A model generated the notes under the pieces. The model saw only the letters and a program-made list of their open reading frames with translations, was not told where the DNA came from and did not search any database. This document shows, piece after piece, positions 4,006 to 56,616 of a DNA stretch of 64,000 nucleotides. The first letter of the stretch is position 1, and each line of letters starts with the position of its first letter. The position numbers and the translations under genes are program-made. The DNA is taken from assembly GCF_009712225.1 (NCBI RefSeq), contig NZ_WASP01000008.1, positions 124,001 to 188,000 on the forward strand, read 5' to 3'. This stretch comes from Desulfovibrio sp. (lineage in GTDB: Bacteria > Desulfobacterota > Desulfovibrionia > Desulfovibrionales > Desulfovibrionaceae).

Positions 4006-4728
4006 ATGGCCAGATTTACCGGTTTTGACGAAGTATTCAGTGCTCTATACGTTGATTTCGACAATATTTACACCCGCTTTCTTGAAATTGACCCCGAGGC
4101 TGCGCGCGCGTTTGGCTCTGTACCCTACCGCTGGGTACGCTGGATAGAAAATCATGCGCTGCGCATTCTTTATGGTGAAGGTGTGCGCCGCCGCATTTTA
4201 AAACGCATGTGCTACCTGAACCCGCAGAGATACCAAGAATACCGCAACCCCTTTATCCGCAGCGCCTTTCAGGTGGTTGACTGCCCGCCGCTGACCACGC
4301 GCGGCAAAACCAGCACCGACATCCATCTGGTCATGGACTGCATGGACGACCTCTCGCACTCCACCCATTTTGACGAATTCATCATCCTTTCTGGCGACGC
4401 CGATTTCACGCCCCTGCTCATACGCCTGCAGGAACACGCCCGCCGTACCCTGGTGCTTTCTGTGGGCTATTCATCGCCCGCGTACACGGCGGCCGCCTCG
4501 TGGCGCATTCGCGAAGACTGGTTTTTGCAACAGGCCCTGCGCGACGAACGCGCCGACGATGTGGACGACCAGCCCGTGCCGGTGGTGCATACCGCCCCGG
4601 TTGCTTCGGTTGCGCCAGTGTCGGCCATCACACCCGCGCCCTCTGCCGCCCGCACGCCGCAACCGGCCCCGCAAGCTGGCGGCATGGATGACGAGGACGA
4701 GGGCCCCTCGCCCGGCAATGCGTGGTAA
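4006..4728 (+). CDS. NYN-domain (PIN-like) putative ribonuclease
   Basis: A 240-residue protein whose first 170 residues match the NYN/LabA (DUF88) fold. Acidic residues occur in LYVDFDNIY, in TDIHLVMDCMDD and in ILSGDADFTPLL, the usual metal-binding set of NYN nucleases. The last 70 residues are Pro/Ala-rich low complexity ending in an acidic stretch (MDDEDEG), with no OST-HTH/LOTUS RNA-binding domain, which larger relatives often carry. The start at 4006 follows TTGAGG; an ATG ten codons upstream lacks a ribosome site. It is monocistronic. Family members cleave RNA, but the target here is unknown. Confidence 0.8.
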   Translation: MARFTGFDEVFSALYVDFDNIYTRFLEIDPEAARAFGSVPYRWVRWIENHALRILYGEGVRRRILKRMCYLNPQRYQEYRNPFIRSAFQVVDCPPLTTRGKTSTDIHLVMDCMDDLSHSTHFDEFIILSGDADFTPLLIRLQEHARRTLVLSVGYSSPAYTAAASWRIREDWFLQQALRDERADDVDDQPVPVVHTAPVASVAPVSAITPAPSAARTPQPAPQAGGMDDEDEGPSPGNAW

Positions 4729-4976
4729 ATACGCGTAAACTGTCAGCTCAACGGCCAGAAGCGCTTGACGCCGGGGGCCGCCGACGCTAAAAAGTGAGAC
4801 GCTCTTTTCTGGTTGGTAGCCCGCCCTACTGGTGCACACCGCGCTTTCCGGCGAACCACGGACCGTTGCAGCTTGCAGCCGTTTTCAGTGATGACGGTGG
4901 TGTGCTGTGGCGCAGCGTCCCCCACGACGCATACAGCGGCGGGCCTGAATCATAAAAACCCTGGTTAGGAGGTCCT

Positions 4977-7511: not shown

Positions 7512-8244
7512 CGCCGCCCCCATTATCTCCATCAGTCACGTCTGGAAGTACTTTGGCTCACTGCCTGCCTTGCAGGACGTATGCCTGGATATTGCCCCCG
7601 GCGAACGGGTGGTCATTATCGGGCCTTCCGGTTCCGGCAAGTCTACCTTGCTGCGCTCCATCAACCGGCTTGAGCAGATCGACCAGGGCAGCATTATCGT
7701 TCAGGGGCAAGATATCCAGAGCGATGAAAATAACATCAACGAGATGCGTCAGAACCTGGGCATGGTTTTTCAGCAGTTCAACCTGTTTCCTCACAAAACA
7801 GTGCTTGAAAACCTTACCCTTGCACCACGCCATTTGCGCAAGCTCTCGCGCGAAGAGGCCAATGCCCGCGCCCTGACCCTGCTCAAAAAAGTTGGCATCA
7901 GCGACAAGGCCAATGTGTACCCTGCCATGCTTTCGGGCGGGCAGCAGCAGCGTGTGGCCATTGCCCGCGCCCTTGCCATGCAGCCTTCCATCATGCTGTT
8001 TGACGAACCCACCTCGGCGCTTGACCCCGAAATGGTTGGCGAAGTGCTGGACGTTATGGTGAAACTGGCCGAAGAAGGCATGACCATGGTTTGCGTGACC
8101 CACGAAATGGGCTTTGCCCGCACCGTGGCCGACCGCCTGATCTTTATGGATCAGGGGCAGATTGTGGAAATGGGAAAGCCCGAAGCCCTGTTTACGGCTC
8201 CCAGACACCCCCGCCTGCGCCAGTTCCTGAACCAGATTCTTTAG
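7498..8244 (+). CDS. Polar amino acid ABC transporter ATP-binding protein
   Basis: A 248-residue GlnQ/HisP-type ATPase that powers the importer. It has Walker [10 protein letters not shown], a Q-loop ([10 protein letters not shown]), signature LSGGQQQR, Walker [15 protein letters not shown] and a switch His in VTHEMGF. All catalytic residues are intact and the length is typical. It overlaps the permease gene by 14 bases. A hairpin after the stop marks the likely operon end. Confidence 0.96.
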
Positions 8245-8260
8245 ACCGCTTGCAGTTATG

Positions 8261-8290
8261 AAGGAATGCCGTGCAGATACGGCATTCCTT
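8261..8290 (+). terminator. Hairpin at the end of the ABC importer operon
   Basis: An 11-bp perfect stem (AAGGAATGCCG / CGGCATTCCTT) with an 8-base loop. The T-run after it is short, so termination strength is uncertain. Confidence 0.5.
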
Positions 8291-8427
8291 AATGACTGGT
8301 CTGTTAGCCGCATTCTTCAGCCTCTTTCTCACGTTCCTGCCCTGTCCACGACAAATCGTCCCCACGGTTCACCATCCACAGCCTCATATTTGCTGTCCCT
8401 TATCCGCCACCGGCAAGGGAGAATCCC

Positions 8428-12902: not shown

Positions 12903-13289
12903 TTAGTGTTTTTCGGTGGCGCAATGAGCCTCGTAAGCCGCAGCGTCCAAAAGGCCAGCGGGCTTGTGGGCCAGCTTGACACGCACAATCCAGCCTTCGC
13001 CAAAGGGATCACTGTTGCAGAGCTCGGGGGTGCTTTCCAGAGCTTCGTTGACGGCGACAACTTCGCCAGACACAGGCGAAATAAGGTCGCTGGCGGCCTT
13101 CACCGACTCGACCGAACCGAATTCCTTGTCTTCAGAAAGCTGGTCGCCCACGGGGGGCAGTTCCACATAGGTGATGTCGCCAAGCGATTCCTGGGCAAAG
13201 CTGGTGATGCCGATAACGGCTTCGTCGCCTTCAATGCGCGCCCATTCGTGGCTGGTGCTGTACAGAATATCGGCAGGATTGGTGGCCAT
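12903..13289 (-). CDS. gcvH: Glycine cleavage system H protein
   Basis: Lipoyl carrier protein that shuttles the aminomethyl group among P, T and L proteins. It is 128 residues long. The lipoyl lysine is K64 in [18 protein letters not shown], and the N-terminal [19 protein letters not shown] is typical. The ATG at 13289 follows AGGAG; a TTG two codons upstream is less likely. It lies second in the gcv operon, 85 bases after gcvT. Confidence 0.97.
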
Positions 13290-13374
13290 GTGCAAACTCC
13301 TGAAAAAATGGGTTCAATCGTTATAAAAATTTCGCCGTCCGGCTGCGGCTGCTGCCGCGTGGGGGGCGACCAGA

Positions 13375-14457
13375 TCAGGCAAGCTTCTTGCGCGCGGTTC
13401 CCTGTGTGTAAAACGGCGCTTCAACCCGGGTGGCGGGCAGCTCTGTTCTTGCGGCGCGTACCACAAAATTTTCGTCAGCGGCGTGGGCGGCGGCTACCCA
13501 GGCAAAGGCGATAACATAGCCCAGCGAGGGGGCAAACGAGCCGCTGGTCACATGGCCAACCTCGCTGCCGTCGGCAGCGGCCACCACATCACCGTGGCGG
13601 GCGGCGCGGCGGCCATCGATGCGCAGGGGAACCAGCACTTCGGCGATCTTCTGCGCGCCTTCGCGGCCCACATAGTCGGCGGTGCTGGTCATCATGCGGC
13701 CCATGCCAGCTTCGGCGGGGCTGTGGTTTTCGTCAAGGTCATGGCCGTACAGGGGCAGCCCGGCTTCAAGGCGCAGGGTGTCGCGCGCGCCAAGGCCCAC
13801 AGGCTTTACACGTTCATCGACCAGCAGGGCATTCCAGAAAGCCTCGGTTTCAGAAGAGGCGATGTACAGTTCATAGCCCAGCTCGCCGGTGTAGCCGGTG
13901 CGGCTCACCAGCAGGGGCGTACCCTGCCATGTGGTTTCGCGAAAACCGAAGTAGCCGAGATCGTGAAAGTTCTGACCCAGCAGCTTTTCAAGCACGTCCA
14001 GCGATTCCGGCCCCTGAAGGTCGATCTTGCCGGTATCGGCTGAAATGTCGACCATCTTCACACTTTCGGGCAAGCGCGAGCGCAGCACGGCAAAGTCGTT
14101 AGCGGCGCAGGCGGCGTTGACCACGGCCATGAAGGAATCGGGGCCAAAGCGATAGATGATGCCGTCGTCAAGCACGCCGCCCTTGTCGTTGAGCAAAAAG
14201 CCGTAGCGGCATTTGCCGGGGGCGAGGGTTTGAAGATTGTGGCTCACGGCCTTGCTCAGGGCTTCATCAGCACCTGGGCCGGAAACAAGAAATTCGCCCA
14301 TGTGGCAAATATCAAAAAGACCCGCATGCTGACGGGTGTGCTGGTGCTCAACAATAATACCCTCATATTGAATGGGCATAAGCCACCCGGCAAAGGGGGC
14401 CATTTTTGCGCCATGCGCCTCGTGCCAGGCGGTGAGGGGGGTACGCAGATCCGACAT
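13375..14457 (-). CDS. gcvT: Aminomethyltransferase (glycine cleavage T protein)
   Basis: Releases ammonia from aminomethyl-lipoyl-GcvH and makes methylene-tetrahydrofolate. A 360-residue protein of normal length. It has MAPFAGWLMPIQY and CHMGEF near the N-terminus, SRTGYTGELGYELY in the middle, LGARDTLRLEAGLPLYGHDL, and the C-terminal GHVTSGSFAPSLG. The start at 14457 follows CAAGGAG; the open frame continues upstream without a ribosome site. First gene of the gcv operon. I looked for a glycine riboswitch upstream and did not recognise one. Confidence 0.97.
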   Translation of the reverse strand: MSDLRTPLTAWHEAHGAKMAPFAGWLMPIQYEGIIVEHQHTRQHAGLFDICHMGEFLVSGPGADEALSKAVSHNLQTLAPGKCRYGFLLNDKGGVLDDGIIYRFGPDSFMAVVNAACAANDFAVLRSRLPESVKMVDISADTGKIDLQGPESLDVLEKLLGQNFHDLGYFGFRETTWQGTPLLVSRTGYTGELGYELYIASSETEAFWNALLVDERVKPVGLGARDTLRLEAGLPLYGHDLDENHSPAEAGMGRMMTSTADYVGREGAQKIAEVLVPLRIDGRRAARHGDVVAAADGSEVGHVTSGSFAPSLGYVIAFAWVAAAHAADENFVVRAARTELPATRVEAPFYTQGTARKKLA

Positions 14458-43981: not shown

Positions 43982-44073
43982 GGCACCACGGGGCGTCACG
44001 GCACGGAATTTTTGCCATTTGCCGCGTGGCCCCGTCACTACCATTGACCATACAGTTTTAAAGGATCAGCGGC

Positions 44074-45129
44074 ATGAAGACAATCAATGTGGGTCTGGTG
44101 GGTATTACCGGCTACGCTGGCATGGAACTGACACGGCTTCTCGTAAGCCACCCCTCCATGCGCCTTGCCATGGCCTGTTCGCGGGCTGAATCGGGCAAGC
44201 GGCTGGGCGATTTTTATCCTTTCCTGAACCACATGCCCGGCGCGGATGTGGTGATCAGCGTTTTTGACCCCAAGGAAGCCGCCCGTCAGTGCGATGTGGT
44301 TTTTCTTGCCGTTCCCGCTGGCACCGCCATGGACATGGCCGAGCTGCTGCTGCGCGAAGGCGTAAAGGTTGTTGACCTTTCGGCAGACTTTCGCCTGCGC
44401 GATCCTGAAACCTACGCCACGTGGTACAAGCGCGAGCACGTATGCAGCGACCTGCTGCACAAGGCCGTTTACGGCCTGCCCGAACTGTACGCCGCTGAAA
44501 TCGCCAAGGCCAAGCTGATTGCCAACCCCGGCTGCTACCCCACGTCGGTCATTCTTGGGCTGTACGCCGCCATCAAGAATGATCTGGTGCACACCGACGA
44601 TCTCGTGGTGGACGCCAAATCCGGGGCCACCGGCGCTGGCCGCAAGGCCGTTGTGCCCACGCTTTTCTGCGAAGTTTCCGACAATTTTCGCGCCTACGGC
44701 CTGCCCACGCACCGCCATACGCCCGAAATCGAACAGGAAATTTCGCTGCTGGCCGGTCACGACATAACGCTTTCGTTCAACACGCACATTTTGCCCACCA
44801 ACCGGGGCATTTTGTCCACCATCTACACCAAGCTCAAAAACCCCGCCACCACGATCGACGAAGTGCGCGAGGTCTTTACCCGCACGTGGGAGCACAGCCC
44901 CTGGGTGCGTATTTTGCCCAAGGGCGCTCTGCCAGAAACGCGTTTTGTGCGCGGAAGCATGTTCTGCGACCTCGGTCTTGTGGTAGACCCCCGTACAGGG
45001 CGGCTGATAATTCTTTCTGCCATCGACAATCTGTGCAGGGGCGCGTCTGGCCAGGCCATGGCCAACGCCAACCTCATGTGCGGGCTGCCGGTGAGTGCAG
45101 GGCTCGATATGCTGGCTCCGCTGGCATAA
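44074..45129 (+). CDS. argC: N-acetyl-gamma-glutamyl-phosphate reductase
   Basis: Third step of arginine synthesis: NADPH reduces N-acetylglutamyl phosphate to the semialdehyde. A 351-residue protein with NADP-binding VGLVGITGYAGMELTRLL, DLSADFRL, the catalytic Cys in ANPGCYPTS (C154), AKSGATGAGRK, the His-containing LPTHRHTPEIEQE, and SAIDNLCRGASGQA. The start follows AAAGGA. No other arg gene is adjacent. A possible weak hairpin just after the stop and a larger structure at 45180 lie downstream. Confidence 0.96.
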   Translation: MKTINVGLVGITGYAGMELTRLLVSHPSMRLAMACSRAESGKRLGDFYPFLNHMPGADVVISVFDPKEAARQCDVVFLAVPAGTAMDMAELLLREGVKVVDLSADFRLRDPETYATWYKREHVCSDLLHKAVYGLPELYAAEIAKAKLIANPGCYPTSVILGLYAAIKNDLVHTDDLVVDAKSGATGAGRKAVVPTLFCEVSDNFRAYGLPTHRHTPEIEQEISLLAGHDITLSFNTHILPTNRGILSTIYTKLKNPATTIDEVREVFTRTWEHSPWVRILPKGALPETRFVRGSMFCDLGLVVDPRTGRLIILSAIDNLCRGASGQAMANANLMCGLPVSAGLDMLAPLA

Positions 45130-45179
45130 AGGCTGTGAACAGCCTCTGAGACACTGCATACAAACGTTTTTGTATTCAA

Positions 45180-45255
45180 GGCACGGCAGAAAGGCTTTTT
45201 ATTCCTGCTAGATGCAACACATGCGCAGCAGCGATAAAAAGCCTTTCGCCATGCC
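45180..45255 (+). other. Long near-perfect hairpin between argC and hypD
   Basis: Arms of about 22 bases (45180-45202 with 45234-45255) pair with only two irregularities, and the inner part (CTGCT...AGCAG) extends the stem, giving a single hairpin of about 76 bases. The T-run and A-run are inside the stem, not after it. It could be a structured RNA, a processing site or a palindromic repeat. Confidence 0.5.
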
Positions 45256-45371
45256 GGAGCCGCCCCCAATTGGCCCGACAGGCCCGGATATTGAGCTTAA
45301 CATGCAGCAGTAGTTTTGCCCGCCGTAGCTTGGCACGCCGCCAGGGCGGGCTGCAAAAAAAAGGAATGCCC

Positions 45372-46463
45372 ATGCAGCTGGAAACCGCCTTTCAGAACCC
45401 GCAGTTGTGTCACAGCCTTCTGGACCGCCTCAACCGTGCCCTTGATGGCCGCAGCATGCGCTTCATGGAAGTATGCGGTACACACACTGTTGCCATTTTT
45501 CAAAGTGGTCTGCGTTCACTGCTGCCCTCATCGGTAACCCACCTTTCCGGCCCCGGCTGCCCGGTGTGCGTCACACACGATGCCGAAGTGGCTGCCTTTC
45601 TTGACCTTGCAGGGCGTGACCGCGTTATCATAGCCACATTTGGCGACCTTTTGCGCGTACCCGGCCCCAACGGCCTTACGCTCAAGCATGCACAGGCGCA
45701 GGGCGCGCGCATAGAAATAGTCTATTCGCCCCTCGACGCCCTTACCCTTGCCGCCGCCAACCCCGGCGACACGGTGGTTTTTCTGGGCATAGGCTTTGAA
45801 ACCACGGCCCCCACGGTGGCCGCAACCCTGCTGACCGCCCAGCAGCGCGGACTGAACAATTTTTGCGTTCTCTCGTTGCACAAGCTTGTGCCGCCCGCCC
45901 TTCGCATCCTGCTTGAAGACAGCGAATGCGGCGTAGAAGCCTTTTTGCTGCCGGGCCACGTGTCCACCATTCTTGGTCTGGAGCCCTACGCATTTCTTGC
46001 CCGCGATTTTCACGTTCCCGGCATTGTGGGCGGCTTTCAGCCTGCCGACATTCTGCTGGCGCTCTGCCTCATGGCCGAACAGCTGCGCGATAAAACCCCC
46101 GCAGTCACCAATGCCTATCCCCGCGCCGTAGACGACACGGGCAACCCACGCGCCCGCGCCCTGCTGGAACAGTTCTTTGAACCGTCAGACGCCCTGTGGC
46201 GCGGCATAGGCTGCATCCCGCAGAGCGGGCTGGCCCTGCGCCCGGAATACGAGAACATGGACGCCATGAAGCGCCTTGGCCTCACCCTGCCGGACGTCCC
46301 CCCCCTTCGCGGCTGTCGTTGCGGCGATGTGCTCAAGGGCCGCATCGCCCCGCCAGACTGCCCCCTCTTTGGCAAAAAATGTACGCCCGCCAATCCCGTT
46401 GGGCCCTGCATGGTTTCCACTGAGGGCAGCTGCGCCGCCTACTTCAAATATTCGGAGCGATAA
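45372..46463 (+). CDS. hypD: [NiFe] hydrogenase maturation protein HypD
   Basis: A scaffold with HypC on which the Fe(CN)2CO unit is built. A 363-residue protein with the CGTHT motif (EVCGTHTVAIF), GPGCPVCVTHDAEV, GFETTAPTVAA, LPGHVSTILG and a C-terminal [4Fe-4S] region (GCRCGDVLKG, then CPLFGKKCTP). All conserved cysteines are present. AAGGA is optimally spaced for the ATG at 45372; the ATG two codons earlier directly abuts it. It overlaps hypE by one base. The Ehr-type large subunit in this window lacks Ni-Fe ligands, so the clients are hydrogenases encoded elsewhere. Confidence 0.97.
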   Translation: MQLETAFQNPQLCHSLLDRLNRALDGRSMRFMEVCGTHTVAIFQSGLRSLLPSSVTHLSGPGCPVCVTHDAEVAAFLDLAGRDRVIIATFGDLLRVPGPNGLTLKHAQAQGARIEIVYSPLDALTLAAANPGDTVVFLGIGFETTAPTVAATLLTAQQRGLNNFCVLSLHKLVPPALRILLEDSECGVEAFLLPGHVSTILGLEPYAFLARDFHVPGIVGGFQPADILLALCLMAEQLRDKTPAVTNAYPRAVDDTGNPRARALLEQFFEPSDALWRGIGCIPQSGLALRPEYENMDAMKRLGLTLPDVPPLRGCRCGDVLKGRIAPPDCPLFGKKCTPANPVGPCMVSTEGSCAAYFKYSER

Positions 46464-47467
46464 TGGACGATTGCCTTCTTCTTGATGCGGGCAGCGGCGG
46501 TAGGGCCTCGCAACGCCTCATTGCCCAGTGTTTCATGCGCCATTTTGCCAATCCGCTGCTTGAGCGCATGGACGACGCCGCCCTGCTGACCGACATCACC
46601 GGGCCGCTGGCCATGAGCACAGATTCCTATACGGTCACGCCTCTGTTTTTTGCCGGCGGCAGCATCGGCACTCTGGCCGTGCATGGCACGGTCAACGATG
46701 TGGCCATGATGGGCGCACGCCCCCGCTACCTGAGCTGCGGCTTTATTCTTGAGGAAGGCCTGCCCCTCGAAACCCTAGAACGGGTGGTGGCCGACATGGG
46801 CGCAGCCGCCCGAGAAGCCGGGGTGTGCATAGTGACGGGCGACACCAAGGTGGTGCCGCGCGGCGCCTGCGACAAGATATTTATCAATACCACTGGCATA
46901 GGCCAGGTTTTTGCCTCTCCCGAGCCCTCTGGTCACAACGCCCGCCCCGGCGATGCAGTGCTGGTCAGCGGGGCCATGGGCGACCACGGGCTTACGGTCA
47001 TGGGCAGCCGCGAGGGGCTTTCTTTCCTCACGGACGTGTCCTCTGATTCAGCCCCGCTCAACCACATGATCGAAGACATCATCAACACCGTGGGCGAAGT
47101 GCACGTACTGCGCGACCCCACACGCGGCGGCCTTGCCACCACGCTCAACGAAATCGCAGAGCAATCGCAGGTTTCCATTGTACTGGACGAAGCCAGCGTG
47201 CCCGTACACGAGGCCGTGCGCAACGGCTGCTCCTTTCTGGGTATGGATCCGCTGTATCTGGCCAACGAAGGCAAGTGCATCTGCATTGTGCCCGAGGCCC
47301 ATGCCGAGGCCGCCCTTGAGGCCATGCGCCGCTCGCCTTTTGGCAAGGAAGCGGCCCGCATCGGCACAGTGAACGAAGGCAAGGCCCAGGTGGCACTGCA
47401 AACGCGCATCGGTGGCCGCCGCCTGCTTGGCATGCTGGAAGGCGCACAACTACCCAGAATCTGTTAG
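46463..47467 (+). CDS. hypE: [NiFe] hydrogenase maturation protein HypE
   Basis: Dehydrates the carbamoyl group on its C-terminal cysteine to thiocyanate, the CN source for the Fe centre. A 334-residue PurM-like ATPase with LLDAGSGGRAS, STDSYTVTPLFF, GTVNDVAMMGARP, VTGDTKVVPRG, RDPTRGGLATTLNE, and it ends in the essential PRIC (Cys334). The ATG overlaps the hypD stop by one base. An 81-base gap leads to a small protein gene. Confidence 0.97.
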   Translation: MDDCLLLDAGSGGRASQRLIAQCFMRHFANPLLERMDDAALLTDITGPLAMSTDSYTVTPLFFAGGSIGTLAVHGTVNDVAMMGARPRYLSCGFILEEGLPLETLERVVADMGAAAREAGVCIVTGDTKVVPRGACDKIFINTTGIGQVFASPEPSGHNARPGDAVLVSGAMGDHGLTVMGSREGLSFLTDVSSDSAPLNHMIEDIINTVGEVHVLRDPTRGGLATTLNEIAEQSQVSIVLDEASVPVHEAVRNGCSFLGMDPLYLANEGKCICIVPEAHAEAALEAMRRSPFGKEAARIGTVNEGKAQVALQTRIGGRRLLGMLEGAQLPRIC

Positions 47468-47548
47468 TATTTTTTGAGGGGCAGCCCCCCAGAAGCCTGA
47501 TTGCTGTTTCAAACCTGCGCAGGAATTCCCTGCCTGAAAGGAAATAAT

Positions 47549-47740
47549 ATGGATTCCACCTATCAACGCGCCATGAACGCCAGCGTCACCCCGCAGATCT
47601 TTTCCACCATGGTCAGCAACGCGCAAAAGGTGGCCGAGGCATTTGCCGGTTCCGGCTCTGCCGGGGCGGATGCCGAAAGCATTGCCGCAGTGTTCAGCCG
47701 CATGATGGTTGCGCAGATCGAACTGTTTGAAAAAAAATAG
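47549..47740 (+). CDS. Small protein of unknown function (63 residues)
   Basis: A small acidic-neutral helical protein (FSTMVSNAQKVAEAFAG, then ESIAAVFSRMMVAQIELFEK) with a Gly/Ser/Ala hinge between two amphipathic helices. No cysteines or membrane segments. A good ribosome site (GAAAGGA) lies before the ATG at 47549, and a terminator follows 20 bases after the stop, which supports a real gene. It may be co-transcribed with hypDE. I do not recognise the family. Confidence 0.65.
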   Translation: MDSTYQRAMNASVTPQIFSTMVSNAQKVAEAFAGSGSAGADAESIAAVFSRMMVAQIELFEKK

Positions 47741-47760
47741 AGTTCTGTTCTCAAATCAAA

Positions 47761-47795
47761 GAGAGGCCGCCCTCAGGGACGGCCTCTCTTTTGTT
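47761..47795. terminator. Bidirectional terminator between converging units
   Basis: A 9-bp perfect stem (GAGAGGCCG / CGGCCTCTC) with A-rich and T-rich flanks. It ends the hypDE/small-protein unit and the minus-strand ABC ATPase unit. Confidence 0.85.
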
Positions 47796-47830
47796 ATCTG
47801 TTCACGGGCTCATGCCGTGCAAAACCTGCC

Positions 47831-48634
47831 CTAACAATCCGCCCACGACGACATGTCCGTTCCCTTGCGCAGGGCTTCGCGCACGCCAGACCACTGCCTT
47901 TCCATGTCTTCCAGCCGGGCCAGCAGGGCATCTTCTGCCGGGGAACGGGCCAGCACCGCCGCCACGGCTCCCTGCTCAAACACCAGCCGCCGGTCAGCCG
48001 CAAGTGCCAGCACAGGATCGTGGGTTGCCATGACAATAATCTTGTCCGAGGCCAGCAACAGGTTCAGGGCCTTGCGTTTGTCCACACCCGCATTTTCAAT
48101 TTCGTCTATGAGCAGCACGGGCGACCAGCTCAGCAGGGCCGTATCAGCAATCATAAGGGCGCGCGACTGCCCGCCGGAGAGCTGGGTAAGCTGGGTGCAG
48201 GCCTGAAAGGGCTCGCCCGCCAGCTCGTTGGCCGCTTCAAAAACCCGTCGGGCGGCACCTTCCGCGTCTGCCACCTCGCGGCTCAGGGCATGGGTGCGCA
48301 AAAAATCCATCACGCCCATATCGAGTACAAAATTCATATTCTGGGTCAGCTGGGCCACCAGCCGCCCCTGCAGGTCAAAACGCGTGTCTTCGTCCGGGGC
48401 CGCGCCGTTGAGCAGCACAGTGCGGCCAGTGGGCGTATCACCCGCCGCCAGCGCTTCTATATCGCCCAAAAAGCGGCTTTTGCCCGCACCCGTCGGCCCC
48501 AGCAAGGCGGTGATCTCACCGGGCTTAAAATGTATATATGCCCTTTCCGGCTGGCCCGCCTTGTCACGCCCGGGGGTCAGGCTCAGACAGCTGAGGGCAA
48601 GCTCAGAACTTTCATTCACCATTTTCAAGCTCAT
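47831..48634 (-). CDS. ABC-type ATPase without a partner permease
   Basis: A 267-residue single ATPase domain. It has Walker A GPTGAGKS (46-53), a Q-loop near residue 98, signature LSGGQSR (152-158), Walker B with catalytic Glu LLIDEIENAG (175-184) and switch His in ATHDP (H205). About 30 residues precede the first strand, and the helical region is atypical. No membrane protein is encoded in the cluster. The start at 48634 follows GGAGG and lies 23 bases inside the GTPase gene, so it is translationally coupled. It may act in a soluble complex (as SufC or UvrA-like ATPases do) or with a distant permease. Function unknown. Confidence 0.82.
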   Translation of the reverse strand: MSLKMVNESSELALSCLSLTPGRDKAGQPERAYIHFKPGEITALLGPTGAGKSRFLGDIEALAAGDTPTGRTVLLNGAAPDEDTRFDLQGRLVAQLTQNMNFVLDMGVMDFLRTHALSREVADAEGAARRVFEAANELAGEPFQACTQLTQLSGGQSRALMIADTALLSWSPVLLIDEIENAGVDKRKALNLLLASDKIIVMATHDPVLALAADRRLVFEQGAVAAVLARSPAEDALLARLEDMERQWSGVREALRKGTDMSSWADC

Positions 48635-49325
48635 GGCCGCCTCCAAAATCCGCCTTTTTGACATTGCCCTTCTGATAGCGCGCGCCAATGCGCATCTCGC
48701 TCAGGCAGTACGAGCAGATGGCGGCTGGCATGGCAAAACGTAGCCGCATGTCGGTGACAGAGGCAATACCGGGCGCAACCGCCACAATGGATGCCAGCTC
48801 AGCGCAGCCCTGGCCGGTCAGCCCGTTTACGTGCCTGATCACGGCCCGCGGGTTCATCTGGCGAATGCGGTAGCGGTACACCTCTCGCTCTGCCTGCGAA
48901 ACCAGATCGCCCTTGGTCACGGCCACCACATCGGCCAACCGCAGCATGGGGCCGATTTTTTCCGGCGCGTCTATGCCCATGAGGTTGTCGATGACGCACA
49001 GGGCCAGAGCCCCGCGCAAATGGGGCGAGCAGCGGTTGCACAGGCCTGCTGTTTCAATGATGCACATGTCTGCCCCAGTCTGGGCGGCCCAGTCAAAGGC
49101 TTCCTCCAGATTGGTGGCAAAAAAGTGGTCGGGGCACAGCCCGCCGGAAAGAGCCACTGTAACAGGAATGCCAGCTGCTGTGTACAGATCGTCGTCGCGG
49201 CTTTGCAGGCAGTCGAACTTGATCACCGCGCAGCTGATATCCCGGCTTTTCAGACTTGCGCCAGCCCTGACCACCAGCGAGGTTTTGCCACACGAGGGTG
49301 GCCCGGCCACGGTTACGAGCCGCAT
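48612..49325 (-). CDS. HypB/UreG-like P-loop GTPase with CxxC motifs
   Basis: A 237-residue SIMIBI-class NTPase. Walker A is GPPSCGKTS (8-16). A switch region IIETAGLCNRCS holds C96xxC99, the base-recognition motif is TKGD (137-140), and LTGQGCAELASI resembles the G5 region of HypB. The C-terminus has C204xxC207 (AICSYCLSE). HypB, UreG and CooC use such folds and cysteines to deliver nickel, so a metallochaperone role is attractive but unproven. It overlaps the upstream gene by 13 bases and the ATPase gene by 23. The start at 49325 follows AGGCGGG. Confidence 0.82.
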   Translation of the reverse strand: MRLVTVAGPPSCGKTSLVVRAGASLKSRDISCAVIKFDCLQSRDDDLYTAAGIPVTVALSGGLCPDHFFATNLEEAFDWAAQTGADMCIIETAGLCNRCSPHLRGALALCVIDNLMGIDAPEKIGPMLRLADVVAVTKGDLVSQAEREVYRYRIRQMNPRAVIRHVNGLTGQGCAELASIVAVAPGIASVTDMRLRFAMPAAICSYCLSEMRIGARYQKGNVKKADFGGGHELENGE

Positions 49326-50329
49326 GCCGCACCCGCCTGCAGCCGCCGGAACTTCAGGGCCAGAATATCCCGCAGGCTGTTGACATCGTTGTTTTCCACA
49401 AAGTCCCAGCCCACCCACTTGAGCCGGGCATGGTGCGGCAGACGCGAGGGACGCGAGCCGTCCATGGGAACAAACCAGGCAGCGCTGCCGATGTCGCCAA
49501 AGCCGTTGGCAAAAAAATTCAGCAGCGGTGCAAGGCGCTCTTTTTCGCTTTTTTTGGCCAGCAGGTAGAGCGGGCTTGCCGCAGCGCCATCCTCCGGCCA
49601 CACCACTTCAACGTGGCCTGGCAGCTTGGTGCTTTCGGCAAAAAACAGGGGGATGATAAAAATACCGCCTGCATCGGGGGCGGCAGAGCCGCAGACCTTT
49701 GCCATGCGCGAAGAGTGCATGAAGCTTTTGATGTTTGCGGCAAGGCCGGTAACGCCCGGCTCGCCGTAGTCCTTGTACTGATTGAGCAGCACGGCGTCGG
49801 CCATGTCATCGCCGTCGCCGCACATGACAACCTGACCCCGGTAGCGTGGGTGCGTCAGGTCTTCCCAGTTGCGGGGGGCTGGCAGGCCATCCAGTTTTTT
49901 GTGGTCTATCAGAAAAATATAGGGCGTCACGCCGTAGATGGTGTAGGCCCCGGCGGGGTCAACCAGCCCGGCCTCGGCATACAGGGGGTTGAGTACCCGT
50001 GGCTGTACGCTTTCAAAAATCCCGGTCTGCACAAAACGCCGCACAAATTCGCCACGCCAGAAATCGCCGTAGCCGATGGAGGCAATGACCGAGGGCAAAC
50101 GGCTCTCGTCCGTTTCCATATACAGGGGGTCGTAGGGGTCAACCGAGGTGCAGCCCATGGGAATATGGGTTGTGAGCGCGGGGTTTTGCGCCGCTGCTAT
50201 AGCCTCTATACGCTCCTTCACCACCAGCTTGACCGGGCAGGGCGCGTAGAGCAGCAGGTCAGCCTTGCCCGGAGCGGAGGCTTCGTCTGTCTGCTGCCAT
50301 GACTGCATGAGGTGCTCAAGCCTTTTCAT
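49313..50329 (-). CDS. Solute-binding-like protein without signal peptide
   Basis: A 338-residue protein with the two-lobe pattern of iron/spermidine-type ABC binding proteins (COG1840-like). It has LLLYAPCPVKLVVKERIEA at the start, YTIYGVTPYIFLIDHKKL, NWEDLTHPRYRGQVVMCGDG, then FIIPLFFAES and LNFFANGFGDIGS. The first 25 residues are polar with no hydrophobic core or lipobox, so it should stay in the cytoplasm, unlike nearly all transport binding proteins. C31 in APCPVK and C59 in MGCTSVDP are potential ligand contacts. It begins a three-gene overlapping unit 164 bases downstream of the NRAMP gene. It may bind a metal complex or cofactor inside the cell. Confidence 0.8.
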   Translation of the reverse strand: MKRLEHLMQSWQQTDEASAPGKADLLLYAPCPVKLVVKERIEAIAAAQNPALTTHIPMGCTSVDPYDPLYMETDESRLPSVIASIGYGDFWRGEFVRRFVQTGIFESVQPRVLNPLYAEAGLVDPAGAYTIYGVTPYIFLIDHKKLDGLPAPRNWEDLTHPRYRGQVVMCGDGDDMADAVLLNQYKDYGEPGVTGLAANIKSFMHSSRMAKVCGSAAPDAGGIFIIPLFFAESTKLPGHVEVVWPEDGAAASPLYLLAKKSEKERLAPLLNFFANGFGDIGSAAWFVPMDGSRPSRLPHHARLKWVGWDFVENNDVNSLRDILALKFRRLQAGAACGS

Positions 50330-50493
50330 AGTGCCTCTTTCCGCAAAAAGTTTGGGGGCCGCTTATGAAAGAGCAAAGAACGTGCCGCGCGTATAAGCCT
50401 GTAACATGCTTTATTTCATAGCAATTTTAAGCGCATACAATCCGTCAGCACCAACAATATTGTACTGCAAAACAAAATTGTGCATGCGCAGGG

Positions 50494-51759
50494 CTAACTG
50501 ATGGCGCTGACCAGCAACATGATGTTGAGCACTGTAACAATGCCGGTGAGGGTATACAGCAGCAGCCTCGTTCCTTTGCCGTTGGCATATTTGCCCATGA
50601 CCTTGGGGGACGAAGTAAGCGTGACCAGTGAAATCATGGTGATGGGTAGCTGCACCGAAAGGGCCATCTGCGAAAGCAGCAAACCCTTGAAGGGATCGCT
50701 GGTCAGCCAGATGAGCACCAGGCCGCACCCCAGCGAACCCACAATGCCCATGACGCTGTGTCTGTCCTTGGTATTGTAGGGTTCGCCAGCCATGCCAGAG
50801 GTCATAATGCCCCCGGCCATGCCCGAAGTGACCGACGAAGCCACGCCCGCAAACAGCAGGGCCACGGCAAACACCACCGACGCGCCATCGCCCAGCAGGG
50901 GCCGCAGCAGATCACGGGCCTGTTCCAGTTCCGTAACCTGTTGCCCCGCCACCCAGAATACCGCAGCGGCCAGAATGATCATGGCGCTGTTGATGGCCCA
51001 GCCCACCAGCATGGCAAAGAGCGTGTCAAAAAATTCGTAGTCGAGCCTTTTTTTGATAAAGTCGTCGCCCTCCAGGTTCCACTGACGGCTCTGGATTATT
51101 TCGGAGTGCAAAAAAAGGTTGTGCGGCATGACCACCGCGCCCAGCACGCTCATGATCACAAGCATGGAGCCTTCAGGGAAACTGGGCTTTACCCAGCCAA
51201 CAGCGGCCTGTGGCACCCACCCTGCGGGCACAAGCCACAGCTCGTACAAAAAGGCCAGGCCAATCACCGACACAAAACCGATGATCCATTTTTCAACCTT
51301 GTTGTACGAATTGAACAGCAGCAGGGCTGCCGCCAGCACGGCTGTAAGGGTTGCCCCCACCGGCAGAGGTATGGAAAAGAGCATACGCAGGGCTATGGCC
51401 CCGCCAAGAATTTCGGCCATGCTGGTCATGACTGATGCGCCAAAGGCGCTCATCAGCACCAGCCGCCCTATGGCGCAGGGAAAATATTCTGTAATGGCCT
51501 CGGCCATGCATTTGCCGGTCACAATGCCCAGGTGCGCCGCATTGTGCTGCAGGACAATGAGCATAAAGGTAGAAAGGCTCACCATCCACAGCAGGGTATA
51601 GCCGTATTCCGCCCCGGCAGCCAGATTGGCCGCCCAGTTCCCGGGATCGATAAAGCCCACGGTCACCAGCAGACCCGGGCCCACAAACTTTAAAAATTCT
51701 TCGCTGCTATGGGTAATGCCAGAAACGGTGCACGCACTCCAAAAATTTTTTACGCCCAT
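50494..51759 (-). CDS. mntH: NRAMP-family divalent metal transporter
   Basis: A 421-residue transporter with about eleven helices that imports Mn2+, Fe2+ or similar ions with protons. The metal site motifs are intact: VGFIDPGNWAANLAAGA in helix 1 and GAVVMPHNLFLHS in helix 6, which includes the Met that selects transition metals. TGKCMAEAI is also typical. The start at 51759 follows AAGGAAG. A good promoter lies about 90 bases upstream. Downstream on the same strand is the binding-protein/GTPase/ATPase trio, which suggests a link with metals. The exact metal is not predictable. Confidence 0.94.
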   Translation of the reverse strand: MGVKNFWSACTVSGITHSSEEFLKFVGPGLLVTVGFIDPGNWAANLAAGAEYGYTLLWMVSLSTFMLIVLQHNAAHLGIVTGKCMAEAITEYFPCAIGRLVLMSAFGASVMTSMAEILGGAIALRMLFSIPLPVGATLTAVLAAALLLFNSYNKVEKWIIGFVSVIGLAFLYELWLVPAGWVPQAAVGWVKPSFPEGSMLVIMSVLGAVVMPHNLFLHSEIIQSRQWNLEGDDFIKKRLDYEFFDTLFAMLVGWAINSAMIILAAAVFWVAGQQVTELEQARDLLRPLLGDGASVVFAVALLFAGVASSVTSGMAGGIMTSGMAGEPYNTKDRHSVMGIVGSLGCGLVLIWLTSDPFKGLLLSQMALSVQLPITMISLVTLTSSPKVMGKYANGKGTRLLLYTLTGIVTVLNIMLLVSAIS

Positions 51760-51845
51760 ATCTTCCTTCCATATATCACAATAACGATACACAGCTCACA
51801 CGCCCCCCTATTGCGCACCTACACATCGCCCAGGGCTTAATGAAA

Positions 51846-51873
51846 AGTATACGCAGTAGAGGGCAACAGGCAA
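51846..51873 (-). promoter_or_regulatory. Sigma-70-type promoter of the NRAMP gene
   Basis: On the minus strand: TTGCCT (51868-51873), a 16-base spacer, and TATACT (51846-51851). The predicted leader is about 80 bases. Confidence 0.5.
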
Positions 51874-51981
51874 GAGGCAGCATTTGCCCCCGCCCCGCAG
51901 CGCTTGCGACTGTGGCATAAAATGTTTATGTAAGCCGCGCCTTCCCCCTTCGGCCTTTTGGTTACTTTTACATTGTCTATA

Positions 51982-52008
51982 TTAAGTTTCCGAAAATACG
52001 ACCGATAG
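51982..52008 (+). promoter_or_regulatory. Sigma-28 (FliA)-type promoter of the chemoreceptor gene
   Basis: TTAAGTTT (51982-51989), 11 bases, ACCGATAG (52001-52008). The enterobacterial consensus is TAAAGTTT-N11-GCCGATAA, so 7 of 8 and 6 of 8 bases match with exact spacing. The predicted leader is about 57 bases to the ATG at 52072. Confidence 0.7.
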
Positions 52009-52071
52009 CTCACTATACGCCGGGTCCGCCAGACTGTCCGGGTCATTTATAAGATTGAGCAGGAGCCTTTT

Positions 52072-54162
52072 ATGACTATCAGACTGCGCGTTATTCTGGG
52101 TTTTCTTCTTACCATTGCCGTAATGGCTGCCGGAACACTGCCTTTCATGGTTAAAACCATGCGCGACAATGCAGAGGAAAGCTATCTCGCCAACGCATCC
52201 ACCCAGCTGCAACTTATGAGCAACTATGTGGAAGCGTTCATCAGCGGTGCCGAACGTGATGTGGCCCTGCTGGCGCAGGAGCCTTACATTGCCGAAGCAG
52301 TTGGCCTGTTTCCCAATTTTTCCAATTCCAAGGAAGCAGAAGTATTTTCACGCGCAGATCTTTCGGTAGACGCATTCAAAACAGTCCAGCCCCTTGTTCG
52401 ACTTGACGAAGGTTCCGAAGACTACGTGGAGGCCTACGCCGGTTACACCGACGGCAGCTACGCCACCTCGGCCGACAATACCAAGGTTCCTGCCGGGTAC
52501 AATACCAGCAAGCGCCCCTGGTACACCCAGCGTGCGGCTTCTTCCCAAAAGGTTGGCCTTGCAGACAGCTACCTTTCCATCACTGGCGAACTGGTGGTGG
52601 CCATTACCCACAAAATGTTTTCTCGCAAGGGCGACTTTACGGGCGTGCTTGGCATCGACGTTTCGCTCAACGGCCTGTCGCAACGCTTTGCCGACCTGAA
52701 TTTCGGCAAGACCGGCTACTTCATGCTGCTTGAAAACACGGGCCGCATTCTCTGCAACCCTCGCTACAAGGATCTGACCGGCAAAATCATCGGCAAAGAC
52801 CTGCAGGATCCCGGTCTGGTCAAACTGTTTGGCATGAAGGACGGCTCGGCAAGCACTGTGATCAACGGGCAGGAAGTGCGCGCCAGTGTGCGCACCACCC
52901 CCCACGGCTGGAAGATTCTCATGCTTCAGAATGAGGGCGAAATCTTTGCGGCCACCAATTCCGCCATCCATGCCAGCATAGTCATAACCGCAAGCGTTGC
53001 CCTGCTCATGCTGATTATTGCCTGGGCCATAGCGCGTTCCATAAACAAGCCCCTGAGCCTCCTGGTCAAGGAAGCCGACAAGGTCGCCACCGGCGATCTG
53101 GATGTGAACCTTGACGCACGCCTGTTCTACGGCGAACTGGCGGAACTGCACGCGGCCCTGCTCAACATGGTGACCAACCTTCAGGACATGATCACAACCT
53201 CGCGCCAGCAAGGCGAGGAAGCCCACCGCCAGGCGGCGCTTGCCAAGGAGGCCACTGCACAGGCCGAGGAAGCGCGCAAGCAGGCAGAAAACGCCCGCCG
53301 CGAGGGCATGCTCAGCGCTGCCCAGCAGCTCGAGGAAGTGGTGAAGATCATTGCTTCTGCCTCAAACGAGCTTGAGGCCCATATTGGTCAGGCCAACCAC
53401 CTTTCGGGCGAATCGGCCCTGCGGCTTGGTGATGCGGCCACAGCCATGAACCAGATGAACGCCACCGTGCGCGAGGTCGCCAGCAATGCTTCTTCGGCTT
53501 CCGGCATGTCTGACCAGACCCGGGCCAATGCCGAAAATGGCGAAAAGATCGTGCAGCAGGCTCTGGAAAGCATTGACCGTGTGCACACGGTTTCGCAGGC
53601 GCTCAAGGACGACATGGGCACGCTCAACGACCATGCCCAGGCCATCAACCGCATCATGAACGTTATTTCTGATATCGCCGACCAGACCAACCTACTGGCC
53701 CTGAACGCCGCCATTGAAGCGGCTCGCGCTGGCGAGGCTGGCCGCGGCTTTGCCGTGGTGGCTGACGAGGTGCGCAAGCTGGCCGAAAAAACCATGGCCT
53801 CGACCAACGACGTGGGCAACGCCATTGCGGCCATCCAGCAGAGCACAGCCAAGAGCGTGGGCAGCGTGGAGAACGCCCTTGAACAGGTAAAAACTGCCAC
53901 GGAATTTGCCAACAGGTCGGGCGAGGCACTGCGCGAAATCGTCAACAATGCCCTTTCCACCGCTGATCAGGTGCGCGCCATCGCCACGGCCAGTGAGGAA
54001 CAGTCCGCCACCAGCGAAGAAATCAACAGGTCCATTGTTGACGTCAACGACCGCGCCGAGCAGACCGTGCACGCCATGAACGCCGCCTCCAGCGCGGTGA
54101 CCGATCTGGCCGAACAGACCAAGAGTCTCGGCAATCTGGTTGCCGACATGAAACGCAGCTAA
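52072..54162 (+). CDS. Methyl-accepting chemotaxis protein with dCACHE-like sensor
   Basis: A 696-residue transmembrane chemoreceptor: TM1 (about 8-26), a periplasmic double-CACHE-like domain (30-300; [58 protein letters not shown]), TM2 (303-322) and HAMP ([20 protein letters not shown]). A long coiled-coil signalling domain follows, whose tip reads [20 protein letters not shown] and then [20 protein letters not shown]. It feeds a CheA-CheW array not encoded here. No C-terminal pentapeptide for CheR docking is seen. The ribosome site is AGGAG. A sigma-28-type promoter places it in the flagellar regulon. The ligand is probably a small organic molecule. Confidence 0.95.
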
Positions 54163-54189
54163 CCCACAGCGCCCATACGCATCCACTTT

Positions 54190-54230
54190 CAGGGCGTCCG
54201 CTTGTCACAAGCGCGACGCCCTGATTTTTT
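54190..54230 (+). terminator. Terminator of the chemoreceptor gene
   Basis: A 9-bp perfect stem (CAGGGCGTC / GACGCCCTG), with an inner GCTTG...CAAGC stem, is followed by ATTTTTTG. Confidence 0.92.
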
Positions 54231-54372
54231 GCGTCTGCCATGCATCACTGGTCACAGGGGGGGCGCATAAGGCCGTCACGGCACACAATCGTAACAAATC
54301 CATCATACATATCAGCTGTAAGCACTGGCAATTATTGCCCTGCGGCAATACTCCGCGCCAGGGGAGCACACC

Positions 54373-56616
54373 ATGAAGTCTTCGGCTGTTATGAACAACA
54401 GGGAATTGAGCTGGCTCAGTTTCAACGAGCGAATCCTGCAGGAAGCGCGCGACCACACCACCCCACTCATGCAGCGGCTGCGCTTTCTGGGTATTTTTTC
54501 CAGCAATCAGGACGAATTCATCAAGGTGCGTGTGGCCTCACTGGTGCGGCTTACCCGTTCGAAAAGCAAGATCAAGCCCCTGCTCATGGGCGGCCTTACG
54601 CCCGAAGAAGCCTTGCAGCGAGTGAACGACAAGGCCGCCACTGCGCAAACGGCCTTTCGCGAAACCTACGAGGAAGTGCTGGATGCCATGGAGCACGGGG
54701 GCATACGCGTGCGCAACGAAACCGAGCTCAGCGAAGGGCAGGATGCCTTTTGCCGGAGCTATTTCGGCAACGTGGTCTATCCGCAGCTTGTACCGTTGAT
54801 TCTCAACAAATCTGCTCAGTTACCATTTTTACAAGACAGCCAGATTTACCACGCCGTCAAGATGGAATCAGACGCCGCACCCGGCAAGTGCCGATACGCA
54901 GTGCTACGCATCCCCGTTAATGCTGCCTGTCCGCGCTTTGTGGAAATGCCCTCCTCGCCCGGCTGCCACGACATTATTTTTGTGGACGACATTATCAGGC
55001 TGTGCCTGAACAATATTTTCTTCATGTTCAATTACGACCGCATCACGGCATATACCTTCAAAGTCATGCGCGATGCGGAACTGAGCCTTGACGACGACGT
55101 CTCCAAAAGCCTTATTGAAAAAATGGAAGAAGGTCTGGAACACCGCCTGCGAGGCCGCCCGGTTCGCCTGATCTACGATCAGGCCATGCCAGAAGACCTG
55201 CTGTTTCTGCTGGCCTCAAAGCTCAACCTCAAAAAAAGCGAGCTGGACCCCGGCGCGCGTTACCACATGATGCGCAGCCTCATGGACTTTCCACGGGTAC
55301 GGCCAGACCTTGAGAATGCCGTCATGCCCGCTCTGCAACACCCCGATATCAAACCTTTTTCAAGCATTCTCAAGGTGGTGCGCACCAAGGATATTCTGCT
55401 GCATTTTCCCTACCACACCTTTAATCATGTGGTGGAGTTTTTATGCGAGGCGGCCATTGACCCCAAGGTAATCAATATTTCCATTACACTGTACCGCACC
55501 GCCGACCACTCGCGTATCATCAATACCCTCATCAATGCCGCTCAAAACGGCAAGAAGGTCACGGCCTGCGTGGAGCTGATGGCCCGCTTTGACGAAGAAC
55601 GCAACGTCAGAAGCATAGACATGCTGCATCAGGGCGGCGTGCGCGTCATCCACGGTCTCAAGGACCTCAAGGTACACAGCAAGCTTATTCTTGTGGAGCG
55701 GGTCGAGGGCGCAAAAAAAACAGGCTATGTCTACATAGGAACAGGAAATTTTAACGAGGACACCGCACGCTTTTACAGCGATGTTGGTCTGCTCAGCGCC
55801 AACCCCGGCTTTGTGGAAGATGCGCGCAGCATCTTCAATTTTCTCAATGCCTCGCACAAACCTGTTTCGTGCTGCGAGCTGGTGGCGGCCCCCCAGTGCA
55901 TGCGGCCTTTTTTTACCCAGTGCATCGAACGCGAAATACGCAATGCCAGAGCGGGCAAAAAGGCCTTTATCCACGTCAAGCTCAACAGCCTCACGGACGA
56001 AGCCATGATCAGGCTGCTGTACCGCGCAAGCAAGGCAGGGGTGGACGTGCGGCTCATCGTGCGCAGCGCCTGCTGCCTCAAGCCCCAGGTACAGGGGCTC
56101 AGCGACCATATACGAGCCATCAGCATTGTGGACAAGTTTCTGGAGCACGCTCGAATTCTGCTTTTTTGCAACAACGGCAGTGAGCTGGCCTATATTTCAA
56201 GCGCCGACTGGATGCCCCGCAATCTCGACCGCAGGCTTGAGGTGGCGGCCCCGGCGCACTGCCCGGCCATACGGCAGACCCTGCGGGATATTTTTGACAT
56301 TCAGTGGGCAGACAACGTCAAGGCCCGCATACTCGATGGCACTGGTGCAAACAGGTACAGCAAGGGCGAGGGCGTGGCACCCTGCCGCTCGCAGGCAATG
56401 CTGCACGCGTATTACAGCCGCAAATCATTGCAGACAAAGGAACAGACAGCAACGCTGACGCCAGAGGGAAAGACCAGGAACAGGGGCACCCCCCCGGCAA
56501 AGACTCAGACAAGGACCACCGCGCCCAAAAACCGCACCCGCAAAAAGCCCCGGCAGGCCCAACCTGCCCGCGGGCTTACCACGCAGACCAGCCAGCAGCC
56601 ACCGGCAGAATCCTAG
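54373..56616 (+). CDS. ppk1: Polyphosphate kinase 1
   Basis: Reversibly polymerises the gamma phosphate of ATP into polyphosphate. The 747-residue protein has the N domain (NRELSWLSFNERILQEA), head domain and two phospholipase D-like C domains. The phosphorylated His is in LKVHSKLILVER (H435, the same number as in E. coli), and YIGTGNFNEDTARFYSD is intact. The last 60 residues are a Lys/Arg/Thr/Pro-rich tail beyond the usual end, likely disordered and possibly binding polyphosphate or nucleic acid. The start follows GGGGAG. An exopolyphosphatase gene follows, 141 bases downstream. Confidence 0.96.
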   Translation: MKSSAVMNNRELSWLSFNERILQEARDHTTPLMQRLRFLGIFSSNQDEFIKVRVASLVRLTRSKSKIKPLLMGGLTPEEALQRVNDKAATAQTAFRETYEEVLDAMEHGGIRVRNETELSEGQDAFCRSYFGNVVYPQLVPLILNKSAQLPFLQDSQIYHAVKMESDAAPGKCRYAVLRIPVNAACPRFVEMPSSPGCHDIIFVDDIIRLCLNNIFFMFNYDRITAYTFKVMRDAELSLDDDVSKSLIEKMEEGLEHRLRGRPVRLIYDQAMPEDLLFLLASKLNLKKSELDPGARYHMMRSLMDFPRVRPDLENAVMPALQHPDIKPFSSILKVVRTKDILLHFPYHTFNHVVEFLCEAAIDPKVINISITLYRTADHSRIINTLINAAQNGKKVTACVELMARFDEERNVRSIDMLHQGGVRVIHGLKDLKVHSKLILVERVEGAKKTGYVYIGTGNFNEDTARFYSDVGLLSANPGFVEDARSIFNFLNASHKPVSCCELVAAPQCMRPFFTQCIEREIRNARAGKKAFIHVKLNSLTDEAMIRLLYRASKAGVDVRLIVRSACCLKPQVQGLSDHIRAISIVDKFLEHARILLFCNNGSELAYISSADWMPRNLDRRLEVAAPAHCPAIRQTLRDIFDIQWADNVKARILDGTGANRYSKGEGVAPCRSQAMLHAYYSRKSLQTKEQTATLTPEGKTRNRGTPPAKTQTRTTAPKNRTRKKPRQAQPARGLTTQTSQQPPAES

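Follow-up and report, generated by a model that had tools for sequence, protein, structure and literature searches.

A leaderless binding protein, a G3E-like GTPase and a permease-less ABC ATPase in Desulfovibrio: a candidate cytoplasmic metal-delivery module

We analyzed a stretch of 64,000 nucleotides from a Desulfovibrio sp. (contig NZ_WASP01000008.1); the whole stretch is called the window, and coordinates count from its first base. Our subject is three minus-strand genes in it, which encode a binding protein without a leader (A), a GTPase (B), and an ABC ATPase without a permease (C). We read this trio as a cytoplasmic, permease-free metal-delivery module that would act once the metal is in the cell, in many cases on molybdenum or tungsten (Mo/W), and we give this reading an even chance of being right. 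It is based on the gene overlaps (13 bases between A and B, 23 between B and C), the missing leader of A, the B-C core, the invariant ligands, and the importers and riboswitches found nearby. The genes and the motifs of B are as follows.

49313-50329, minus strand: gene A, 338 amino acids, leaderless protein of SBP_bac_6 fold (Pfam)
48612-49325, minus strand: gene B, 237 amino acids, G3E-like (HypB/UreG-like) GTPase (Pfam cobW)
49125-49136, minus strand: CPDH motif of B
49029-49040, minus strand: first CxxC motif of B
48705-48716, minus strand: second CxxC motif of B
47831-48634, minus strand: gene C, 267 amino acids, ABC ATPase without permease (Pfam ABC_tran)

Proteins of the trio

Protein A matched Pfam SBP_bac_6 at 198.7 bits (cut-off 24.6). 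Its AlphaFold model had a predicted local distance difference test (pLDDT) score of 87.1 and was closest to FbpA (3od7; VIA-align Z 21.0, root-mean-square deviation 3.8, 285 residues aligned); the fold predicted for A is that of a ferric-binding protein. No signal peptide was found on A, the best 17-residue hydropathy in its first 60 residues being 1.04. Likewise, no hydrophobic leader was found on 57 A homologues (>200 bits), with a top 17-residue hydropathy of 1.79, in a test that is simple and rough as some homologue open frames start too early. The sole other SBP_bac_6 match in the same genome (L177) has a start that reads as a signal peptide and adjoins a TOBE-domain ABC ATPase. In 17 of the 57 homologues, the binding domain is preceded by Pfam DUF1858, which we take to be a cytoplasmic domain. 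From its sequence, A thus appears to stay inside the cell.

Two potential ligands are conserved in the same 57 proteins: Cys31 (codon 50237-50239) in 55 and His205 (codon 49715-49717) in 56. Judged from secondary structure and alignment, both probably lie near the cleft between the lobes. A diverged form, A', has the Cys31 equivalent in 1/10 and the His205 equivalent in 0/10. The tyrosine pair of YfuA, presumably its iron ligands, aligns by profile with Pro-Leu in the window's A. The first position of the FbpA tyrosine pair is Pro in 56/57 homologues; the second (position 228) is Tyr in 30/57 and Leu in the window's A. We therefore rejected FbpA-style iron(III) binding for the window's A, in which Pro-Leu replaces the pair.

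Protein B matched Pfam cobW (PF02492) at 43.3 bits (cut-off 20.7) and so carries the G3E domain, while it fell under the NCBIfam cut-offs for HypB (TIGR00073; 46.5 bits, cut-off 121.2) and UreG (TIGR00101; 23 bits, cut-off 204.2). Its model (pLDDT 77.3, with residues 62-66, 207-221, and 230-237 below 50) had HypB (2hf8, Z 18.4) and UreG (5xkt, Z 18.3) as the closest solved structures. Eight residues were invariant in 90/90 homologues, namely C64, P65, D66, H67, C96, C99, C204, and C207, of which six are Cys or His (C64, H67, C96, C99, C204, and C207). The Walker B glutamate (E91) expected of a G3E protein, by the definition in PMC2770081, was also present in 90/90. The NKxD motif is not intact: B has TKxD (T137-K138-x-D140), with T in 69/72 homologues and S in 3, and with T in 18/18 proteins of the type III (C-B-X) loci described below. 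For this reason, we call B G3E-like rather than G3E. The CxCC of COG0523/CobW was found in none of the 14 rows of a B alignment, which have C96xxC99 and C204xxC207 instead. HypB and UreG bind metal at switch I and switch II. We tentatively read CPDH as switch I and CxRC (C96-C99) as switch II of B.

Protein C matched Pfam ABC_tran (PF00005) at 49.3 bits (cut-off 25) and was far under the cut-off in every one of the best 25 of 120 NCBIfam families. Long forms of C have an N-terminal extension, with a weak DUF1858 match in 5/28 (best E 0.0005).

An earlier note on this DNA, written from the letters alone, had described a minus-strand trio overlapping by 13 and 23 bases, and the gene coordinates give the same overlaps. 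It had also described a periplasmic-binding-protein fold without a signal peptide, on which hydropathy, Pfam, and the model agree, and CxxC pairs of B at 96-99 and 204-207, both of which are there; C64-P-D-H67 is a further invariant motif beyond these. Its intact ABC ATPase is borne out by the motifs GPTGAGKS, LSGGQ, LLIDE, and ATHD of C. The lack of a membrane subunit holds as well, since none overlaps or lies between the trio genes in the mapped loci.

Distribution, gene order, and neighbors

The earlier note had proposed searching for the three-gene set across genomes and tabulating its neighbors, and this search found the trio conserved with recurring neighborhoods. Relatives of B (E 1e-15, single-protein query) were found in 12/247 genomes of its own phylum; they were present in 47/149 genomes of the window's family and in 51/398 genomes of Bacillota, a name that here denotes the phylum of G247, a Tissierellia relative. 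Trios occur in Desulfovibrionaceae, other Desulfobacterota, Bacillota, and Fusobacterium; within the genus, they are patchy (4/9 genomes listed). At A-B-C loci from Desulfobacterota, Tissierellia, and Fusobacterium, A is 25-93% and B is 53-95% identical to the window's protein. The same A-B-C set with these identities across phyla marks the trio, as far as sequence comparison goes, as more than a chance arrangement. Locus maps include false frames, as gene calls in GC-rich loci are mechanical, and named neighbors are mostly confirmed by Pfam, some by similarity only.

Protein C was encoded at 93/93 loci with B. The 85 rows of the B tree comprise 49 A-B-C loci, 16 C-B-X loci (where X is a PF04060 Fe-S protein), 12 B-C-A' loci, 4 with B-C-DUF364, 3 with B-C alone, and 1 with A' upstream. 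The C-B-X form (type III) is a single, distant clade (support 100/100). The clade of the window's B has 26 rows (100/99), the Bacillota A-B-C and DUF364 forms share one clade (97/91), and these two clades together form a group of 57 rows (99/93). Since C accompanies B at all these loci and the third partner differs between subfamilies, B and C form the core of the set, and the third partner (A, diverged A', Fe-S protein X, or DUF364) reads as exchangeable.

We split the Bacillota loci by B score, not by architecture, into 32 higher-scoring loci (about 299 bits or more) in 27 genomes and 26 lower-scoring loci, 24 of them in other genomes. Fourteen lower-scoring loci were mapped, 13 of them C-B-X and one B-C-A' (G495, L133). 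For comparison, we took 20 of the 347 Bacillota genomes without a trio.

The neighbors of the higher-scoring group point to metal import. Counting places on the same contig as a trio, FecCD genes lay within 6 kilobases (kb) of 8/32 higher-scoring trios (0.52 expected), and the molybdenum cofactor (Moco) riboswitch RF01055 lay within 5 kb of 8/32 (0.59 expected) and within 1 kb of 3/32 (0.15 expected). At the lower-scoring loci, FecCD was within 10 kb of 0/26. At L161, B-C-A' follows a riboswitch (4604-4733), while a second riboswitch (8157-8297) leads a one-strand run of genes for an ATPase, Peripla_BP_2, FecCD, A, B, and C. At L174, a riboswitch lies about 140 bases ahead of B-C-DUF364, and at L178, one is followed by A' (SBP_bac_6, 70.5 bits) and then B at the contig end. 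Among the trio genomes (n = 51), at least 12 FecCD genes have a Moco riboswitch 141-2216 bases upstream on the same strand. This suggests that the FecCD-type importer of those genomes carries Mo or W. At L161, L164, L170, L171, L173, L141, and L143, the FecCD importer beside the trio comes with a separate binding protein and ATPase.

Two of these loci, L141 and L143, belong to the window's own B clade: L141 has an SBP_bac_11 protein beside the FecCD importer, and L143 has FmdE. SBP_bac_11, which we take to be the ModA family, is also encoded ahead of B at L152 (Desulfobacterota). Elsewhere in Desulfobacterota, L047 has DUF364 and FmdE near the trio, and the L051 trio is flanked on one side by a FecCD importer and a TonB-receptor-like gene and on the other by a binding protein gene, after which come nifH-family and Nitro_FeMo-Co genes. 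In G264, genes for FecCD, an ATPase, MoeA, and DUF364 share the strand of B at a distance of 8-12 kb, and a DUF364 gene follows C in G595, G635, G632, and G252. According to excerpts of PMC2954201, DUF364 has been linked to the transport of Mo, W, V, and Fe. Stem P3, said in excerpts of PMC2408646 to separate Moco from tungsten-cofactor RNAs, could be read in both L161 RNAs and in those of L168, L171, and L173, and it was missing from the displayed L174 RNA. Among 101 of 188 neighbors, hand-picked without near-duplicates, Pfam counted ABC_tran 9 times, cNMP_binding 7, Prismane 6, Peripla_BP_2 6, BPD_transp_1 5, FecCD 3, and DUF364 3 times.

Several side observations concern these neighborhoods. 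At L161 (4604-13918), a single FecCD importer lies between two distinct trios, B-C-A' and A-B-C. Between the TonB-receptor-like gene and the FecCD/ATPase pair of L051, a second A-like protein with no obvious leader is encoded (13220-14239). Near the B-C-A' sets of L153, L048, and L044 are genes for a TonB receptor, a binding protein, and a BPD_transp_1-type permease; L153 and L048 also have an AraC regulator. In at least 19/52 genomes searched, an FmdE-family gene lies about 0.8-2.1 kb from a FecCD gene, and this pair is perhaps a Mo/W importer of the family. At two Desulfobacterota loci, a conserved 80-amino-acid protein with Cys pairs, zinc-ribbon-like by eye, is encoded directly after C (L049:10657-10899 and L052:7582-7824). 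The contig of L021 is titled Deltaproteobacteria with a lineage of Myxococcota, yet its B shares 95% identity with the B of the window. In a plasmid collection, five records matched, one with a trio relative: NZ_CP084075.1 of Fusobacterium vincentii, which is catalogued as a plasmid with a single annotated feature and whose 2.1 Mb suggest a chromosome.

Proposed mechanism and relation to known systems

In the module that we propose, a separate importer would bring the metal or a metal complex into the cell, where A would hold it with its Cys and His. C, having no channel, would spend ATP on opening A or freeing its load, as an importer's ATPase does. B would take the metal on the CPDH ligands of switch I and the CxRC ligands of switch II and, upon GTP hydrolysis, would pass it to an acceptor in the manner of HypB or UreG.

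In subfamilies with informative neighbors, the metal is most likely Mo or W. If the trio is a delivery module, Mo/W is the probable cargo of the riboswitch- and FecCD-linked forms and has about one chance in three of being that of the window's organism. In this Desulfovibrio-type organism, the metal may be Mo/W or a divalent metal. A bolder and rather doubtful version holds that a transporter's binding protein and ATPase now serve in the cytoplasm, together with a GTPase, as an ATP- and GTP-driven metal insertase with swappable modules (A, A', X, or DUF364), the main line of which would load Mo/W, perhaps as thiomolybdate, into the cofactors of anaerobes.

How metals are inserted into cofactors is understood for nickel (HypB and UreG) and for Fe-S clusters (Suf). 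To our knowledge, little is known, beyond MoeA and MogA, of the steps that follow molybdate or tungstate entry. Genes for Mo/W are described in excerpts of PMC10102598 as conspicuous in pooled-mutant fitness under chlorate and molybdate. HypB and UreG have the closest solved folds to B, which shares with them the Walker B Glu and Cys/His in the regions read as switches. However, B falls under both NCBIfam cut-offs, has TKxD for NKxD and a C-terminal CxxC, and is partnered by an ABC ATPase and a binding protein. The model of A has the FbpA/FutA fold over about 285 residues (Z about 20-21), but A lacks the FbpA tyrosine pair, has its own conserved Cys and His, and shares an operon with a GTPase. 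FutA1 is reported to be mainly intracellular (excerpts of PMC6254336 and PMC8786288), so an intracellular A has a precedent; the leader of FutA1 is also described as giving some periplasmic targeting (PMC6254336, in the same excerpts).

The likeness of C is to SufC and other permease-less ABC ATPases, SufC being described in excerpts of PMC9164220 as serving cytosolic metallocofactor assembly. Unlike SufC, C had no SufB/SufD partner that we saw, and its partners are a binding-protein-fold protein and a G3E-like GTPase. Compared with an ABC importer, C has the ATPase motifs, but no permease comes with the trio and A has no leader. As in Moco-riboswitch Mo/W uptake operons, a riboswitch, a FecCD- or ModA-type importer, DUF364, and MoeA lie near the trio in several genomes. 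In contrast to those operons, RF01055 was found upstream at L161, L174, and L178 but neither at the window nor in its own genome; the word GTPase does not occur in the excerpts of PMC2408646, and we found the trio in no described Mo/W pathway.

The earlier note knew of no described system with these three parts, and we recognized none in a search of open-access papers either. The parts have known kin among G3E chaperones, FutA1-like intracellular binding proteins, and SufC-like ATPases; what that search did not find described is their combination with an exchangeable third part. If the delivery reading is true, a widespread set of rewired transporter parts would give G3E GTPases a partner of a new kind and could account for some anaerobe genes that are called "ABC transporter" but have no permease.

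Competing explanations and the choice of metal

A number of results weigh against a delivery module for Mo/W. MoeA was found in 22/27 higher-scoring, 11/24 lower-scoring, and 12/20 non-trio genomes, which is no association (higher-scoring trio versus non-trio genomes, p 0.19). It is missing in 5/27 higher-scoring Bacillota trio genomes, in the Fusobacterium record, and in G015 (Desulfobacterota), and these trio genomes rule out the Mo/W cofactor as a universal target. In the window's family, FecCD lay within 6 kb of 2/48 trios (0.30 expected, p 0.04; at 10 kb, p 0.08), and strict-filter searches of 21 family genomes, the window's included, turned up no Moco riboswitch. The Mo/W link in the window's own family is weak. 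A search of window positions 44000-56000 against Rfam found no RF01055 and just three sub-threshold, implausible matches. All our Poisson p-values ignore the kinship of related loci and thus overstate the case.

Other neighbors and ligands fit Mo/W poorly. In Fusobacterium, the genes that come after the trio are those for DUF6162, ZnuA, and ABC-3 permease, and the window's trio stands beside a gene for an NRAMP transporter. The hybrid-cluster protein (HCP) is encoded beside eight Bacillota trios (L156-L160, L162, L163, and L165), five of which also have a Crp/Fnr-type regulator. A' is linked to riboswitches though it nearly always lacks the Cys and His of A. Since one tyrosine of the FbpA pair persists in just over half of the A homologues, iron stays conceivable for the family on sequence grounds. 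Taken together, the metal may differ between subfamilies, as excerpts of PMC2770081 propose for COG0523 GTPases.

The alternative that survives best is a divalent-metal chaperone, which would pass Mn, Fe, Zn, or Ni from NRAMP to a client or regulator, with Mo/W as a trait of other subfamilies. We regard it as unlikely, though a serious contender. The following genes lie beside the trio and are listed as context.

50494-51759, minus strand: NRAMP (MntH-like) transporter (Pfam), 164 bases upstream of A
45366-46463, plus strand: hypD (NCBIfam TIGR00075, 411 bits), convergent neighbor
46463-47467, plus strand: hypE (NCBIfam TIGR02124, 443 bits), convergent neighbor

NRAMP lies directly upstream of the trio on the same strand in the window, L021, L042, L043, and L140, and hypD lies beside the trio at these five and at L022. 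Neither was found by any other trio locus searched; all carriers come from the window, from genomes of its genus, or from two nearly identical contigs, and the adjacency looks accidental. A divalent metal would suit this NRAMP gene, the genes for ZnuA and ABC-3 permease that follow the trio in Fusobacterium (where MoeA had no match), and the Cys/His ligands together with the tyrosine that many A proteins keep at position 228. It is weakened by the absence of NRAMP from the other trios examined and by the Mo-type neighbors of L141 and L143, which belong to the window's clade.

Less probable still, and quite unlikely in our view, is a role in the assembly or repair of Fe-S or hybrid clusters, in which C would be SufC-like, B would deliver iron, and A or X would be scaffold or client. 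DUF1858 on A and, weakly, on long C agrees with it, as do the eight HCP loci and the pairing of a PF04060 Fe-S protein with C-B in type III. A run of genes for Rrf2, C, B, a NifS-like aminotransferase-V, and Fe-S protein X (L050:6835-10926) also fits. However, type III is one distant clade, HCP is found in one Bacillota group only, and the fold of A is that of an importer binding protein and of no known scaffold.

A role for B as an accessory HypB that delivers nickel to [NiFe] hydrogenase is very improbable. It would explain why hypDE and the trio are neighbors in the window and in its closest relatives and why HypB and UreG are the closest structures to B, but B is under the HypB cut-off and hypD is not adjacent at other loci. 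HypD was found in 12/27 higher-scoring trio genomes (missing in 15), in 13/24 lower-scoring ones, and as frequently without the trio (8/20). Because HypD does not co-occur with the trio and hypD stands beside few loci, a hydrogenase role is unsupported, and we rejected it. The earlier note had placed NRAMP just upstream and hypDE convergent, and both positions agree with the coordinates and the Pfam and NCBIfam matches. Its idea of a set that handles metals or metallocofactors in the cytoplasm, with a binding protein put to new use and no permease, is supported; its nickel and hydrogenase flavor is not, given that HypD is not enriched, B is under the HypB and UreG cut-offs, and the neighbors point to importers and Mo/W.

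An ordinary ABC importer with its permease elsewhere and A exported by an unrecognized route would account for the importer families of A and C, but it is equally improbable, as the hydropathy test found no leader on the 57 A homologues, 17 of them have DUF1858 at the N terminus, and FecCD importers at the loci read bring a binding protein and an ATPase with them.

Window positions 52072-54162, which lie upstream of NRAMP and on the other strand, read as a methyl-accepting chemotaxis receptor. Genes for similar receptors (cluster c3) are on 17 loci, and such receptors are common.

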